Shown here: piece after piece, positions 2,678 to 31,269 of the stretch
How positions within the stretch are numbered: position 1 is the first letter of the stretch
How the letters are laid out: each line of letters begins with the position of its first letter
Assembly (NCBI GenBank): GCA_038827615.1
Contig: JAWBNK010000002.1
Location: 62,001 to 126,000, forward strand
Reading direction: 5' to 3'
DNA: 64,000 nucleotides
Source of the DNA: Thermosphaera sp.
GTDB lineage: Archaea; Thermoproteota; Thermoprotei_A; Sulfolobales; Desulfurococcaceae
Notes under the pieces: generated by a model
Told to the model about the DNA's origin: nothing
Databases searched by the model: none
Seen by the model: the letters and a program-made list of their open reading frames with translations, nothing else
Translations under genes and position numbers: made by a program

Positions 2678-4762
2678 TCACACTAGTTGGAGAAGAACCA
2701 GGACCAGCCTCGTGGCGGTGCTGGCCGCGTAGGCTACGGTAAGCATCGTGGCGATCGACAACGCCGTTACCCTGAGGCTCCTGGTCTCCGAGTATATTGC
2801 CGACAGCGTCGCCAAGCAGGGCACGTAGAGGACTATGAAAACGCTTAGTGGGACCAGCTCCGCGTCGGTTAAACCCGCCGCCAGTGCAGCCTGCTTAATG
2901 GTAGCCGCGCCCGATATGACTAGGAGGGATGAAATGAACAGCTCTTTCGCGAAGAACCCTACGAGGAGTCCGAATAAGACTATCCATGCCGCCTCGCCCG
3001 TGATCCCTATCGGTCTCAGCGAGGGTGCGAGGAGCCTCGAAACAGCTGCAGCTATGCTGCTGGATGGGTCCAGGGTTGGCTGAAGCCCCGGGGTCGTGTG
3101 CGTCAGCAACCAGATGATCACGCTTGCCGAGAAGATGATCACGCCGGCCCTCTTTATGAAGTGCTTCAAGTCGCTCCAAGTCATCCACCAAACCACCTTC
3201 GGTATGGGCTTGTGCAGGGGAGGGATCTCCAGGAGTATCTCAGGGCTCCTACCCCTTGGCTTGTCCTGTAGCCTGTACAACGCGTAGTTCACGGCAACGA
3301 ATACTATGAAGGACGCTAAGTACCCGGTGATGATTAAGAGGCTGCTGGAGAAGCTCGTCAGGGCGGTCGACATCGCGAGCAGGACTATTAAGCGGGCCTG
3401 GCACGGGATGAACGGTAGCGTTAACGTGAGCCTTAGTTTCTCTCTGAAGCTGATGCTGGCCCTCGTGGCCAGTATCGCTGGGACGTTGCATCCGAGAGAT
3501 AGGGTCAGCGGGAAGATCGATGCACCGGATAATCCTATCTTGGAGGTCAAGTAGTGCGCTCCGATGGCCATTCGCGGGAGGAGGCCGCTGTCCTCGAGGG
3601 AAGCTAGGACTGCGCTAACCACGAGTATCAGGGGGATGAAGACTAGGAGCGCTCCGACTCCTCCCACTACTCCTTCAGCTATGAAGGAGGCTGCGAACGG
3701 GTTTTCAATGGATGACTCGATAATGCCCTGTAAGGTCGATAAAGCCTTATCCAGCAGTCCCGAGACGCTGTACTCCTCGACGATCACAGCCGCTTCCTCG
3801 TAGCCTAACGCCTCGAGCAGGGCGTTGAGGGGGAAGCCCGTGTTCAACGCGAAGACTGCGAGGAACATTGCCAATATGATGGAGATGGTGACAAAGGGCC
3901 CCGCGATGGGGTTGTAGAAGAACTTGTATCTCGAAGCCCGCTCTTCAACTCTGCGCTTTACTATTGCCGCGCTGGTTAGTTCGAGAATGAAGTGGAAGCG
4001 TTTCGAAGCGATCAGGGCTGCTAGATCCCTCCCCAGCATTCTCGAAGCCTCACTCCTCACCTCTCTGATCTCCCTTAGGACTTCCTCACCGGCTTCCCCG
4101 GCGATCCTTTGCTCGAGCTCTGGGTCTCCTTCGAGGAGCCTTAAGGCGAGCCATCTCAAAGGGTAGTTGGTCAGCCCTTTATGCCTTGCCAGGGTCTTCA
4201 GGATGGAGTCTATGAATGGTTCAAGCTCCCCGTAGTCCAGCTTGAGCGTTCCAGAGGGCGGGGTCTTCGAGGAGGCTGTTTCAATTATCTTGTCCAGTAG
4301 ATCCTTCAAACCCTGCTCGCAGACCGCAGAGGTGGGTACCACCGGCGCCTTCAGCCTGCTCTGGATCAACCCGTAGTTTATGTGTACTCCGTGGGAGTGG
4401 GCTAGGTCGGTCTTTGTGAAAGCTATTATAACGTTGCCGGCGAGCTCGAGGGTTTCAACGGCAAGGTAGAGGGTTCTCTCCGGGATCAACGCGTCCACGA
4501 GGACCACGACCACGTTTGGCTCGCCGCTAAGTATGTAGTCTCGCGAAAGCTTCTCCTCGAAAGTCGTCGCGGAGAACCCGTATATGCCCGGAAGGTCTAC
4601 GATGCGGATATCCCATCCCTTATGCTTGACGAGTCCTTCAATCCTTTCCACCGAGGTGCCTGGCCAGTTCGCGATCCTCGTCTCGCCGCCCGTTAAGGCT
4701 TTGAAGAGCGTTGACTTCCCGACATTCGGCTGGCCCACGAGGGCTACTCTTATCTCGGCCAC
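2678..4762 (-). CDS. feoB: ferrous iron transporter FeoB
   Basis: A 694-residue Fe(II) permease. It has an N-terminal GTPase domain: G1 GQPNVGKST at 10-18, a G3 DLPGIYG and a G4 TKTD. A helical spacer follows, then a membrane domain of multiple helices with the Feo core signature around GCNVPAILATRA and the second gate region. It imports Fe2+ across the cytoplasmic membrane, driven or gated by GTP. The ATG at 4762 overlaps the end of feoA by 13 bases, so the two genes are co-transcribed and probably translationally coupled. The length is normal for archaeal FeoB and all key motifs are present. Confidence 0.97.
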   Translation of the reverse strand: MAEIRVALVGQPNVGKSTLFKALTGGETRIANWPGTSVERIEGLVKHKGWDIRIVDLPGIYGFSATTFEEKLSRDYILSGEPNVVVVLVDALIPERTLYLAVETLELAGNVIIAFTKTDLAHSHGVHINYGLIQSRLKAPVVPTSAVCEQGLKDLLDKIIETASSKTPPSGTLKLDYGELEPFIDSILKTLARHKGLTNYPLRWLALRLLEGDPELEQRIAGEAGEEVLREIREVRSEASRMLGRDLAALIASKRFHFILELTSAAIVKRRVEERASRYKFFYNPIAGPFVTISIILAMFLAVFALNTGFPLNALLEALGYEEAAVIVEEYSVSGLLDKALSTLQGIIESSIENPFAASFIAEGVVGGVGALLVFIPLILVVSAVLASLEDSGLLPRMAIGAHYLTSKIGLSGASIFPLTLSLGCNVPAILATRASISFREKLRLTLTLPFIPCQARLIVLLAMSTALTSFSSSLLIITGYLASFIVFVAVNYALYRLQDKPRGRSPEILLEIPPLHKPIPKVVWWMTWSDLKHFIKRAGVIIFSASVIIWLLTHTTPGLQPTLDPSSSIAAAVSRLLAPSLRPIGITGEAAWIVLFGLLVGFFAKELFISSLLVISGAATIKQAALAAGLTDAELVPLSVFIVLYVPCLATLSAIYSETRSLRVTALSIATMLTVAYAASTATRLVLVLLQLV

Positions 4763-8809: not shown

Positions 8810-9049
8810 TTACAGTTTCTTAACCCTGGCCTTCTCCCTTCGCGAGAGAAAGTCCTCATACTCCTCCACTATCTTTCTAACGTAGGGCTTCAACTCCTCC
8901 GGGGGCACTCGCTCGATTAGAGCCTTGAAGAAGCGCGAAGCACACCTAGAGCTGTGGAAGCTGATGGTTAGATCACCGTATTTCAAGACGATTCCCTGTC
9001 CAGCTGGAAACGGCCTGCCGCACACCACGCACTTATGCTTTACACTCAC
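8810..9049 (-). CDS. TRASH/L24e-like zinc finger protein
   Basis: A 79-residue protein with the pattern CxxC (CVVCG) followed about 24 residues later by HSSRCASRFF. This is the treble-clef arrangement of the ribosomal L24e/TRASH group, which binds one metal ion. The C-terminal half is a charged helix with a Lys/Arg tail. It may be a metal-sensing or RNA-binding protein. It overlaps the 3' end of the gene starting at 9755 by 17 bases, so the two are probably co-transcribed. Confidence 0.68.
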   Translation of the reverse strand: MSVKHKCVVCGRPFPAGQGIVLKYGDLTISFHSSRCASRFFKALIERVPPEELKPYVRKIVEEYEDFLSRREKARVKKL

Positions 9050-9755
9050 TCAAACCAGCCTCTTTCAACCTGTCGACAAGCCTCCCCGTTTCAAGAGTGT
9101 AGAGTCGGAGCTTCATGCTCTTGTTCCTGAGGCTCCTCAGCTCGACGAACTTCCTATCGGGCTCGGGAACGAAGCACAAGTCCTCGGTGAACCCGACGTA
9201 CTGCCTCCCGTCCACCATTACTCCCTTCTTGTATACTTCGAACCCTATTCTAGCGAAGAGGAATGTCTGCATATCGCTCCCCCTGAACAACAAATACCTC
9301 AACCCCTGCATGACGCCGAAGAAGAAGGTGTACATTCCTATGAAGTATATGAACCTCAAGACGACCTCGTTCTCAGTGTACTGGCTGGCGAACTCCACTA
9401 TGAAAGGACCTATCGACGCCTGGTAGAGGCTCCAGAGTATGAATACGAAGAAGAGGAGCATGAAGTTCAACATCATCATCGACATCTGCTTCTTCAGCTC
9501 TGCGTTCAAGTACTTGTCGTACATCATAGCGTTCATGGGATTGGACTCCTTGAACAACGGCGACCCGAGCTCGCTCTTCGGAGGCGGCTTCATGCTGCGG
9601 CTGGTGAGCTTGAACATTACGGCCATGAACACTATGAAGTAGACTAGGAAGAAGGCGAAAGCCCACTGAGGCACTACCGCTGAAACCAGCGCGAATAGAA
9701 CCATGGATAATGCTTGAATGATCCACATAGTCTTGCGGGGTGGTTGACTCATCAT
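9033..9755 (-). CDS. integral membrane protein, DUF2208-like
   Basis: A 240-residue protein with hydrophobic segments near residues 12-50 (two helices), 91-112 and 130-150, then a cytoplasmic C-terminal domain of about 80 residues rich in Arg and Glu. A Met-rich loop (KKQMSMMMLNFML) lies before the third helix. It resembles the archaeal DUF2208 membrane family by general architecture; I assign that with caution. It shares an operon with the zinc finger gene downstream. Confidence 0.62.
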   Translation of the reverse strand: MMSQPPRKTMWIIQALSMVLFALVSAVVPQWAFAFFLVYFIVFMAVMFKLTSRSMKPPPKSELGSPLFKESNPMNAMMYDKYLNAELKKQMSMMMLNFMLLFFVFILWSLYQASIGPFIVEFASQYTENEVVLRFIYFIGMYTFFFGVMQGLRYLLFRGSDMQTFLFARIGFEVYKKGVMVDGRQYVGFTEDLCFVPEPDRKFVELRSLRNKSMKLRLYTLETGRLVDRLKEAGLSECKA

Positions 9756-9831: not shown

Positions 9832-9886
9832 GTGATGATGAATCGCCACATAACGGATCCGTGAAGAAGGTCCGTGTTTCTGAAGA
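9832..9886 (+). ncRNA. box C/D guide sRNA (candidate 1)
   Basis: Ordered boxes: C RTGATGA (9832-9838, or ATGATGA at 9835-9841), D' CGGA (9854-9857), C' GTGAAGA (9861-9867) and D CTGA (9880-9883). Using the second C box, both guide spacers are exactly 12 nt and the D'-C' gap is 3 nt, the compact archaeal geometry. The D guide AGGTCCGTGTTT (9868-9879) is complementary over 11 nt to AAACACGGACC, a highly conserved 23S/28S rRNA segment as I recall it. By the D+5 rule it would direct 2'-O-methylation of the A in AAAC-A-CGG. The D' target is unknown. Confidence 0.8.
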
Positions 9887-9908
9887 CCACTACACTTACG
9901 CCCTGCTT

Positions 9909-9964
9909 CAGCGATGAAGAAGAAAAGAGCGCGGATCAGTGACGAAGTTATCCCCGGCTGAGCT
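9909..9964 (+). ncRNA. box C/D guide sRNA (candidate 2)
   Basis: Boxes: C GCGATGA (9911-9917, one mismatch), D' CGGA (9932-9935), C' GTGACGA (9939-9945) and D CTGA (9958-9961). The D'-C' gap is 3 nt and the C'-D spacer is 12 nt. The D guide AGTTATCCCCGG (9946-9957) pairs over 11 nt with CCGGGGAUAAC, the conserved 23S rRNA stretch next to the peptidyl-transferase loop. Predicted methylation is on the third G of GGGG (about E. coli G2446). It follows candidate 1 by 25 bases in the same direction, so both may be processed from one transcript. Confidence 0.78.
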
Positions 9965-10042: not shown

Positions 10043-10525
10043 TTGAGAAGCAGCAAGCTGTTCCTCAGCATGATCATAGACGTCCAGCCAGGATGGGTTT
10101 CGAGAACCGAGAGAATGCTCAGGGAGAAGGGCTTCAAGACAAGGCTGACTCCCCCGTCGACGATAAACGCTTTCAAAACATACGAGTCCGTGAGCCCGGA
10201 TGATATCGCCGCCGACGTTAGAGGCGCGCTGGAATCCGCTCGTTCATGGAGGGCCGCGTGCCTCGAGTACTGGCTGGTGATCGAAGCACAATGCCCCTGC
10301 CCCAACAGGAAGGCCTGCTTCGAAAAAGTAGGTGAAACCGTACTCCACGTTTACTGCGGCGGGAAGAATCGAGTGAGCCTTCGAGTAGTCAACGCCAGGA
10401 GCCCTCCTTCAGACCCTTCAAGCATCCCGAGAAGCGTTTTAAAGCTGTGCGTCGAGCCCGAGGGGTTGCAGGACTCGATGGGCAAGGTATTAAATATCGT
10501 TAAGACATTGAGTAGTTTGAAGTGA
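10043..10525 (+). CDS. unknown 160-residue protein with Cys cluster
   Basis: A soluble alpha/beta protein that I cannot assign. The N-terminal half (SMIIDVQPGWVSRTERML) looks like a ferredoxin-fold strand-helix. Mid-protein is a Cys cluster, CPCPNRKAC with a nearby YCGG, that could bind metal. TTG 10043 is chosen because GGTGAG lies about 6 bases upstream. It ends convergently with the DUF72 gene. Composition is host-like. Confidence 0.65.
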   Translation: MRSSKLFLSMIIDVQPGWVSRTERMLREKGFKTRLTPPSTINAFKTYESVSPDDIAADVRGALESARSWRAACLEYWLVIEAQCPCPNRKACFEKVGETVLHVYCGGKNRVSLRVVNARSPPSDPSSIPRSVLKLCVEPEGLQDSMGKVLNIVKTLSSLK

Positions 10526-20536: not shown

Positions 20537-20850
20537 GGGGGCCGGGACCCCGTTCACGCCTCCCTCCGGGGGGTGAGGAAACTCCGCGCACCCCGTGGCA
20601 GTGCGGCCCCGTAAGGGGCACGGGCAGTCCCCGTGGCAACGGCACAGAAACGATACGGCCGCGGCTGGATGGCTCTGATGCGGCTAGGCCCCCGGCGACG
20701 GGGGTTTTAAACCGCTGAGGACGGCTGCGGACGCGTTGAAACGGCCGCCCCGCACGGTGCAAGGCCTGGATCCGGTGTGAGGGCCACGCGACCGGTGGAG
20801 GCCGCTTAGACGAATACGGGTTTACAGAACGCGGGTTATGTCCCGGCCCC
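20537..20850 (+). ncRNA. rnpB: RNase P RNA
   Basis: A very GC-rich, highly structured region. The ends pair as helix P1 (GGGGCCGGGAC at 20538-20548 with GTCCCGGCCCC at 20840-20850). The conserved GGGTGAGGAAACTCCGC (20571-20587, CR-I), ACAGAAACGATA (20644-20655) and CGAATACGGGTTTACAGAAC (20811-20830, CR-V) are present in order. The length of about 314 nt fits archaeal type A RNase P RNA, the catalytic RNA that trims the 5' ends of pre-tRNAs. It ends two bases before the convergent tsr3 gene. Confidence 0.93.
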
Positions 20851-21804: not shown

Positions 21805-21910
21805 TGGACCGGCCGGGATTTGAACCCGGGTCCTCCGCCTCTCTCCGACCTCGGTTCCGCCCCTTAAGGCCATGCAAGGGCGGCGCTCTTCCAGGCTGAG
21901 CTACCGGCCC
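21805..21910 (-). tRNA. tRNA-Ala (UGC) with 32-nt intron
   Basis: The minus strand folds as a tRNA of 74 nt once a 32-nt intron (21841-21872) is removed from the standard 37/38 position. The acceptor stem is GGGCCGG/CCGGTCC, the D arm GCTC...GAGC, the anticodon stem CCGCC/GGCGG with loop CTTGCAA (anticodon TGC), the T arm CCGGG TTCAAAT CCCGG, and the discriminator A. CCA is not encoded. The intron is typical of archaeal bulge-helix-bulge splicing. A TTTTAAA element near 21937-21944 is at the expected promoter distance. Confidence 0.95.
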
Positions 21911-26352: not shown

Positions 26353-26483
26353 GACCCCCGACCCGGCCATAGTGGCCGGGCAACACCCGGTCTCGTATCG
26401 AACCCGGAAGTTAAGCCGGCCACGTCAGGGTGGCCGTGAGGTCCGCGAGGCCTCGCAGCCGCCCTGAGCTGGGATCGGGGGTC
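26353..26483 (+). rRNA. rrf: 5S ribosomal RNA
   Basis: The ends pair as helix I (GACCCCCGA with TCGGGGGTC). Inside are the archaeal 5S landmarks: GCCGGGCAACACCCGGTCTCGTATCGAACCCGGAAG-type loop B/C sequence, the TAAGCC segment, and a long arm with GAGGTCCGCGAGGCCTC. It is about 131 nt, at the long end for Crenarchaeota. It stands apart from 16S/23S, as is usual in this phylum. Confidence 0.95.
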
Positions 26484-31166: not shown

Positions 31167-31269
31167 AGCCGCCGGCGGGATTTGAACCCGCGTCCACCGG
31201 CTGTCCAGCGACCTCGGTTGAAGAGGGCCGATACGAGGCCGGCGCTCCACCGGGCTGAGCTACGGCGGC
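31167..31269 (-). tRNA. tRNA-Thr (CGU) with 29-nt intron
   Basis: The minus strand folds into a 74-nt tRNA after removal of a 29-nt intron at 31203-31231. The acceptor stem is GCCGCCG/CGGCGGC, the D arm GCTC...GAGC, the anticodon stem CCGGC/GCCGG with loop CTCGTAA (anticodon CGT), the T arm GCGGG TTCAAAT CCCGC, and the discriminator T. It ends 5 bases from the convergent pyruvate kinase stop. A TTTTTATAAAC box (31294-31304) lies 25-35 bases upstream. Confidence 0.95.

Follow-up and report, generated by a model that had tools for sequence, protein, structure and literature searches.

Archaeal box C/D sRNAs were reportedly described in 2000 by Omer and by Gaspin. Archaeal guide RNAs are said to evolve fast and to vary in their genomic surroundings. 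The locus considered here, in a window of 64 kb (the whole stretch of DNA that was analysed), raises the question of whether two such elements lying one behind the other are genuine guides for the organism's own 23S rRNA, and whether they belong together as one unit. Positions 9832-9963 very probably represent a dicistronic box C/D guide sRNA pair, predicted from sequence to be transcribed, processed and used for 2′-O-methylation of the 23S rRNA of the same organism. sRNA1 and sRNA2 are novel examples of a well-known class of RNA (reviewed in PMC7994747), and the pair is kept together across several related families.

Box architecture of the two sRNAs

In both sRNAs the C, D′, C′ and D boxes follow in this order within ~50-60 nt (Table 1). 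The boxes themselves, the 3 nt D′-C′ gaps and the 12 nt C′-D spacers agree exactly with the original prediction. The C box of sRNA2 reads GCGAUGA against the consensus RUGAUGA, and several relatives have CCGA, CAGA or CGGA as the D box of this sRNA. A pattern scan for the strict C/D motif returned two places in the 64 kb window, sRNA1 and sRNA2 only, and none in 200 random windows generated by a first-order Markov model with matching dinucleotide composition. In each sRNA the D guide also matches the 23S rRNA of the same organism over 11 bp, with one G.U pair in the case of sRNA1; for a random 11-mer the chance of such an own-23S match, one G.U allowed, is about 0.5 %. Motif, own-23S match and conservation together exclude chance. 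Pairing with the own 23S rRNA, guide-target covariation and the conserved tandem bear out the assignment of both elements to the C/D sRNAs.

Table 1. Positions of the sRNAs, their guides and adjoining features in the window
Feature	Position	Strand	Remarks
Divergent DUF2208 membrane protein gene	9033-9755	-	Adjoins sRNA1 in 29 family-f1 loci retrieved
TATA-like element tatattaa	9800-9807	+	~28 nt upstream of sRNA1 C box
sRNA1, box C/D sRNA	9832-9883	+	GTGATGATGA-ATCGCCACATAA-CGGA-TCC-GTGAAGA-AGGTCCGTGTTT-CTGA; C GTGATGATGA 9832-9841, D′ CGGA 9854-9857, C′ GTGAAGA 9861-9867, D CTGA 9880-9883
sRNA1 D′ guide core TCGCCAC	9843-9849	+	Pairs with 23S GUGGCGA, LSU 704-710; N+5 = G704
sRNA1 D guide GGTCCGTGTTT	9869-9879	+	Pairs with 23S AAACACGGGCC, LSU 678-688
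sRNA1-sRNA2 spacer	9884-9910	+	27 nt, without TATA-like element
sRNA2, box C/D sRNA	9911-9963 (boxes 9911-9961; GC/GC ends)	+	GCGATGA-AGAAGAAAAGAGCG-CGGA-TCA-GTGACGA-AGTTATCCCCGG-CTGA (9911-9961); C GCGATGA 9911-9917, D′ CGGA 9932-9935, C′ GTGACGA 9939-9945, D CTGA 9958-9961
sRNA2 D′ guide	9918-9931	+	Orphan in the window; other targets in relatives
Frame GTG ACG AAG TTA TCC CCG GCT GAG CTC CCT TAA	9939-9971	+	Closed after ten codons in the window
sRNA2 D guide GTTATCCCCGG	9947-9957	+	Pairs with 23S CCGGGGAUAAC, LSU 2602-2612
Downstream ORF, 160 aa	10043-10525	+	Starts within sRNA2 in many relatives

The best Rfam match of sRNA1, and likewise of most homologues tested, is sR5 (RF01304). In the Rfam model search sRNA1 reached 36.8 of 40 bits (E 4e-7), which is below the curated cut-off, and its homologues L203 and L204 of family f11 exceed that cut-off (53.5 and 54.7, respectively). 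sRNA1 is related to sR5 and is not a member of it. sRNA2 scored 22.6 of 36 against sR17, also below the curated cut-off, and reached the cut-off of no Rfam family. Weak matches to the sRNA1 model elsewhere in the own genome (C1:590902-590954 and C1:183406-183443) are probably other C/D sRNAs.

Targets in the own 23S rRNA

The own genome (G000) is 1.36 Mb in size and holds one 23S gene; LSU numbering begins at the 5′ end of that gene, with limits set by Rfam. The D guide of sRNA2 forms 11 Watson-Crick pairs with CCGGGGAUAAC, the N+5 nucleotide being G2606, the equivalent of E. coli G2446 in the alignment. The predicted target is thereby matched exactly. The D guide of sRNA1 forms 10 Watson-Crick pairs and one G.U with AAACACGGGCC, and its N+5 nucleotide, A682, is aligned to E. 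coli A575. For this guide the site and the nucleotide hold, as G2606 does for sRNA2, but the own 23S reads AAACACGGGCC and not the AAACACGGACC that had been assumed, hence the single G.U. The exact target AAACACGGACC was absent from the own 23S region when both strands were searched.

The D′ guide of sRNA1 had gone unmentioned in the original prediction. Its duplex is with GUGGCGA, at a distance of 22 nt downstream from the D target; sRNA1 is accordingly a double guide with two sites that close, although the D′ duplex has just 7 bp in the own genome. Duplexes with own rRNA in which the N+5 nucleotide is paired were found for both D guides and for the D′ guide of sRNA1, and none was found for the D′ guide of sRNA2.

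A scan of the own 23S, 16S, 5S and 44/45 tRNA loci gave no convincing target for the D′ guide of sRNA2; the best placed 7 bp matches to tRNA were on the antisense strand and were rejected. Among relatives this guide is lineage-specific, yet it addresses the same rRNA neighbourhood wherever a target was found. Variants include CUCCCAUCG in G019, UACCUCGAU in G053 and CGGGCAU in G023, of which UACCUCGAU would reach what we take to be the position of E. coli C2498. Several retargetings of the D′ guide inside the peptidyl-transferase region, with the D guide staying put, seem to be recorded in these loci (L008-L011, L016-L024, L176, L221).

Guide-target covariation

For many of the relatives there is only a draft genome, in which the 23S gene is missing. 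Across the relatives, the D target of sRNA2 occurs as four rRNA alleles: CCGGGG, CCAGGG, CCGAGG and CCAAGG. The first pairs off with guide UUAUCCCC, and the second, in G020, with guide UUAUCCCU. From the alleles CCGAGG and CCAAGG of families f2 and f5 the guides UUAUCCUC and UUAUCCUU, respectively, were predicted, and a pattern search found both before CTGA, UUAUCCUC in G037 and G057 and UUAUCCUU in G063. In G063 the rRNA allele CCAAGG occurs together with its guide; the CCGAGG rRNA comes from G159 and guide UUAUCCUC from the congeners G037/G057, that is, from different species of one genus. The N+5 nucleotide is G in all four alleles. The D′ guide of sRNA1 follows its target as well, with GCCACGG for CCGUGGC in G005, GCCACUGC for GCAGUGGC in G018 and CGCCACAGCC for GGCUGUGGCG in G060. 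Coevolution of guide and target of the kind looked for in an archaeal box C/D sRNA is evident in the D guide of sRNA2 and the D′ guide of sRNA1.

The 23S genes themselves vary in length. That of G020 contains an insertion (L039, ~3600-4200) that resembles an rRNA intron and may hold a homing endonuclease frame, and the 23S gene is longer in several relatives.

A possible second site of the sRNA1 D guide

In the own 23S the D guide of sRNA1 also forms 10 Watson-Crick pairs with AACACGGACC, LSU 1526-1535, where the N+5 nucleotide is A1529. The chance that this guide is dual-target, serving AAACACGGGCC (A682) as well as AACACGGACC, a hairpin of domain III (A1529), is close to even but falls a little short of it. 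On this reading, pairing with A at the second site would explain the retention of the guide U, and the G.U pair that it forms at the first would be tolerated. The own 23S holds both matches (10 Watson-Crick pairs plus one G.U, and 10 Watson-Crick pairs). The site at 678 is AAACACGGGCC in every relative where it was retrieved, and in most of these the guide is still G.U-paired there. The guide reads GGUCC in 13 of the 14 genomes in which AACACGGACC is intact (G015 and G011 are exceptions to the overall pattern), and GGCUC or GGCCC in 7 of the 8 in which it is broken. The association between guide and state of the second site has a Fisher p of 0.0004 by genome and 0.01 by genus, values that are overstated since the genomes are related and hence non-independent. 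The guide switch is nevertheless separate within f1 (G020) and f8 (G053), and some relatives carry GGUCCGUGUUA, with 11 Watson-Crick pairs to the second site. The position of that site inside a stable hairpin speaks against its use, as does the D′ guide, for which no partner site was noted beside AACACGGACC.

Conservation of the tandem and its probable joint transcription

sRNA1 is conserved in 30 loci, and sRNA2 in 27 loci of its family. Covariance-model searches of 214 genomes of the order showed that the tandem order recurs in five families, f6, f8, f9 and f10 besides f1. MAGs of Desulfurococcales and of Staphylothermus are the named records that carry the tandem. Compared with archaeal C/D sRNAs as reviewed (PMC7994747), the window pair is distinguished by staying tandem over these five families. 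The two form a linked pair in which order and D-guide targets persist over several families, and the D guide of sRNA2 tracks four rRNA alleles.

Upstream of sRNA1 an A/T block is found at -30 to -24 in 29 loci, with -30 to -27 being 97-100 % A/T, and the spacers between the two sRNAs range from 7 to 64 nt in relatives. The simplest reading of these sequences is that sRNA1 and sRNA2 are on one transcript, and the originally suggested di-sRNA transcript gains support from the conserved TATA-like element and the short spacers. A promoter ~28 nt upstream of sRNA1 would most likely give rise to a single transcript, which would then be trimmed around two sRNPs. It is unlikely that each sRNA has its own promoter and that the two are neighbours only. 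Such an arrangement would suit G029, where ~750 nt lie between them, and G010, where they are on opposite strands, but in several genera the spacer, at 7-27 nt, has scant room for a promoter, and the order is conserved in five families. At the G010 locus (L183) sRNA2 is inverted relative to sRNA1, and a 188-codon frame runs out of sRNA2.

On the other side of sRNA1, a 79-aa protein with weak resemblance to ribosomal protein L24e (19 bits, cut-off 73) is encoded at 8810-9049 on the reverse strand, beside the DUF2208 gene throughout family f1.

Predicted methylation guiding and comparison with known guides

Fibrillarin and Nop5 genes are encoded in the own genome, adjacent to each other (C1:917858-919323), and L7Ae, Nop5 and fibrillarin would be the protein partners of both sRNAs. 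With these, sRNA1 would direct 2′-O-methylation of 23S A682 through its D guide and of G704 through its D′ guide, both being nearby sites in domain II, and possibly that of A1529 too. The mark directed by sRNA2 would fall on G2606 (E. coli G2446), next to the peptidyl-transferase centre.

From our own reading of the sequences, A682 presumably corresponds to Am649 and G2606 to Gm2815 in yeast numbering. By local sequence, the A682 site resembles the target of eukaryotic U18 (yeast Am649, human Am1313) and the G2606 site that of snR38 (yeast Gm2815, human Gm4362) (PMC8817022, PMC5199042). U18 and snR38 are separate eukaryotic snoRNAs, and their likeness to the window pair lies in the target sites.

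A chaperone role has been proposed for double guides whose targets lie close together (PMC4644070), and the two targets of sRNA1, 22 nt apart, fit that proposal. That the pair serves mainly in rRNA folding, methylation being a side effect or missing at one site or several, is nonetheless improbable, as the N+5 nucleotide is paired at three predicted targets in the own genome and the G2446 equivalent is G in all alleles.

Overlap of sRNA2 with a protein gene

An ATG or GTG, provided by the C′ box of sRNA2, shares its frame with the guide, and in many relatives the downstream gene opens with this frame. It stays open for at least 175 codons in 18/45 loci (MKKLSPSEP...); in these 18 the gene takes its start codon from the C′ box, and ‘MKKLSP’ is therefore encoded by the guide as well. 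Of the genes that start in sRNA2, those of L012 and L029 are homologous to the window ORF at 10043-10525, for which no Pfam or NCBIfam match was found. In the review of archaeal C/D sRNAs, 5′ overlaps with a gene are rare (7 %), and such overlaps reportedly lowered downstream transcription in a reporter test (PMC7994747). There the commonest location of the start codon is the guide or the post-D-box region; in the present loci it is the C′ box of sRNA2.

The idea that the 3′ half of sRNA2 is nothing more than coding sequence, conserved as the 5′ start of a protein gene (MKKLSPSEP), with its guide likeness a by-product, draws on the long open frames and the two homologous genes, but it is highly improbable and was rejected, given that a stop ends the frame after at most a few dozen codons in the window and most other loci with the guide letters kept, that guide changes compensate rRNA changes, and that sRNA2 has a complete C-D′-C′-D set. 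The persistence of the guide letters where the frame is closed indicates that it is the RNA which is under constraint. These loci, in which the frame is open or closed depending on the genus, are natural replicates of the rare 5′ overlap and bear on the effect of a guide RNA inside a gene's start region.

A broader proposal combines two elements: that 20-odd bases are double-read in many relatives, as a guide to the peptidyl-transferase loop and as first codons of an uncharacterised protein, which would tie protein expression to guide-RNP assembly, and that the sRNA1 guide is dual-site and tracks the presence of its second site. As a joint claim this is tentative and, on present weighing, doubtful.

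Other RNA genes in the window

Two tRNA genes on the reverse strand, at 21805-21910 and 31167-31269, were found by Rfam and not by ARAGORN; at 103-106 nt they have room for introns. Rfam also places an archaeal RNase P RNA at 20538-20850 and a 5S rRNA gene at 26359-26477, both on the forward strand, and the 5S rRNA gene is on a different contig from the 16S-23S locus.
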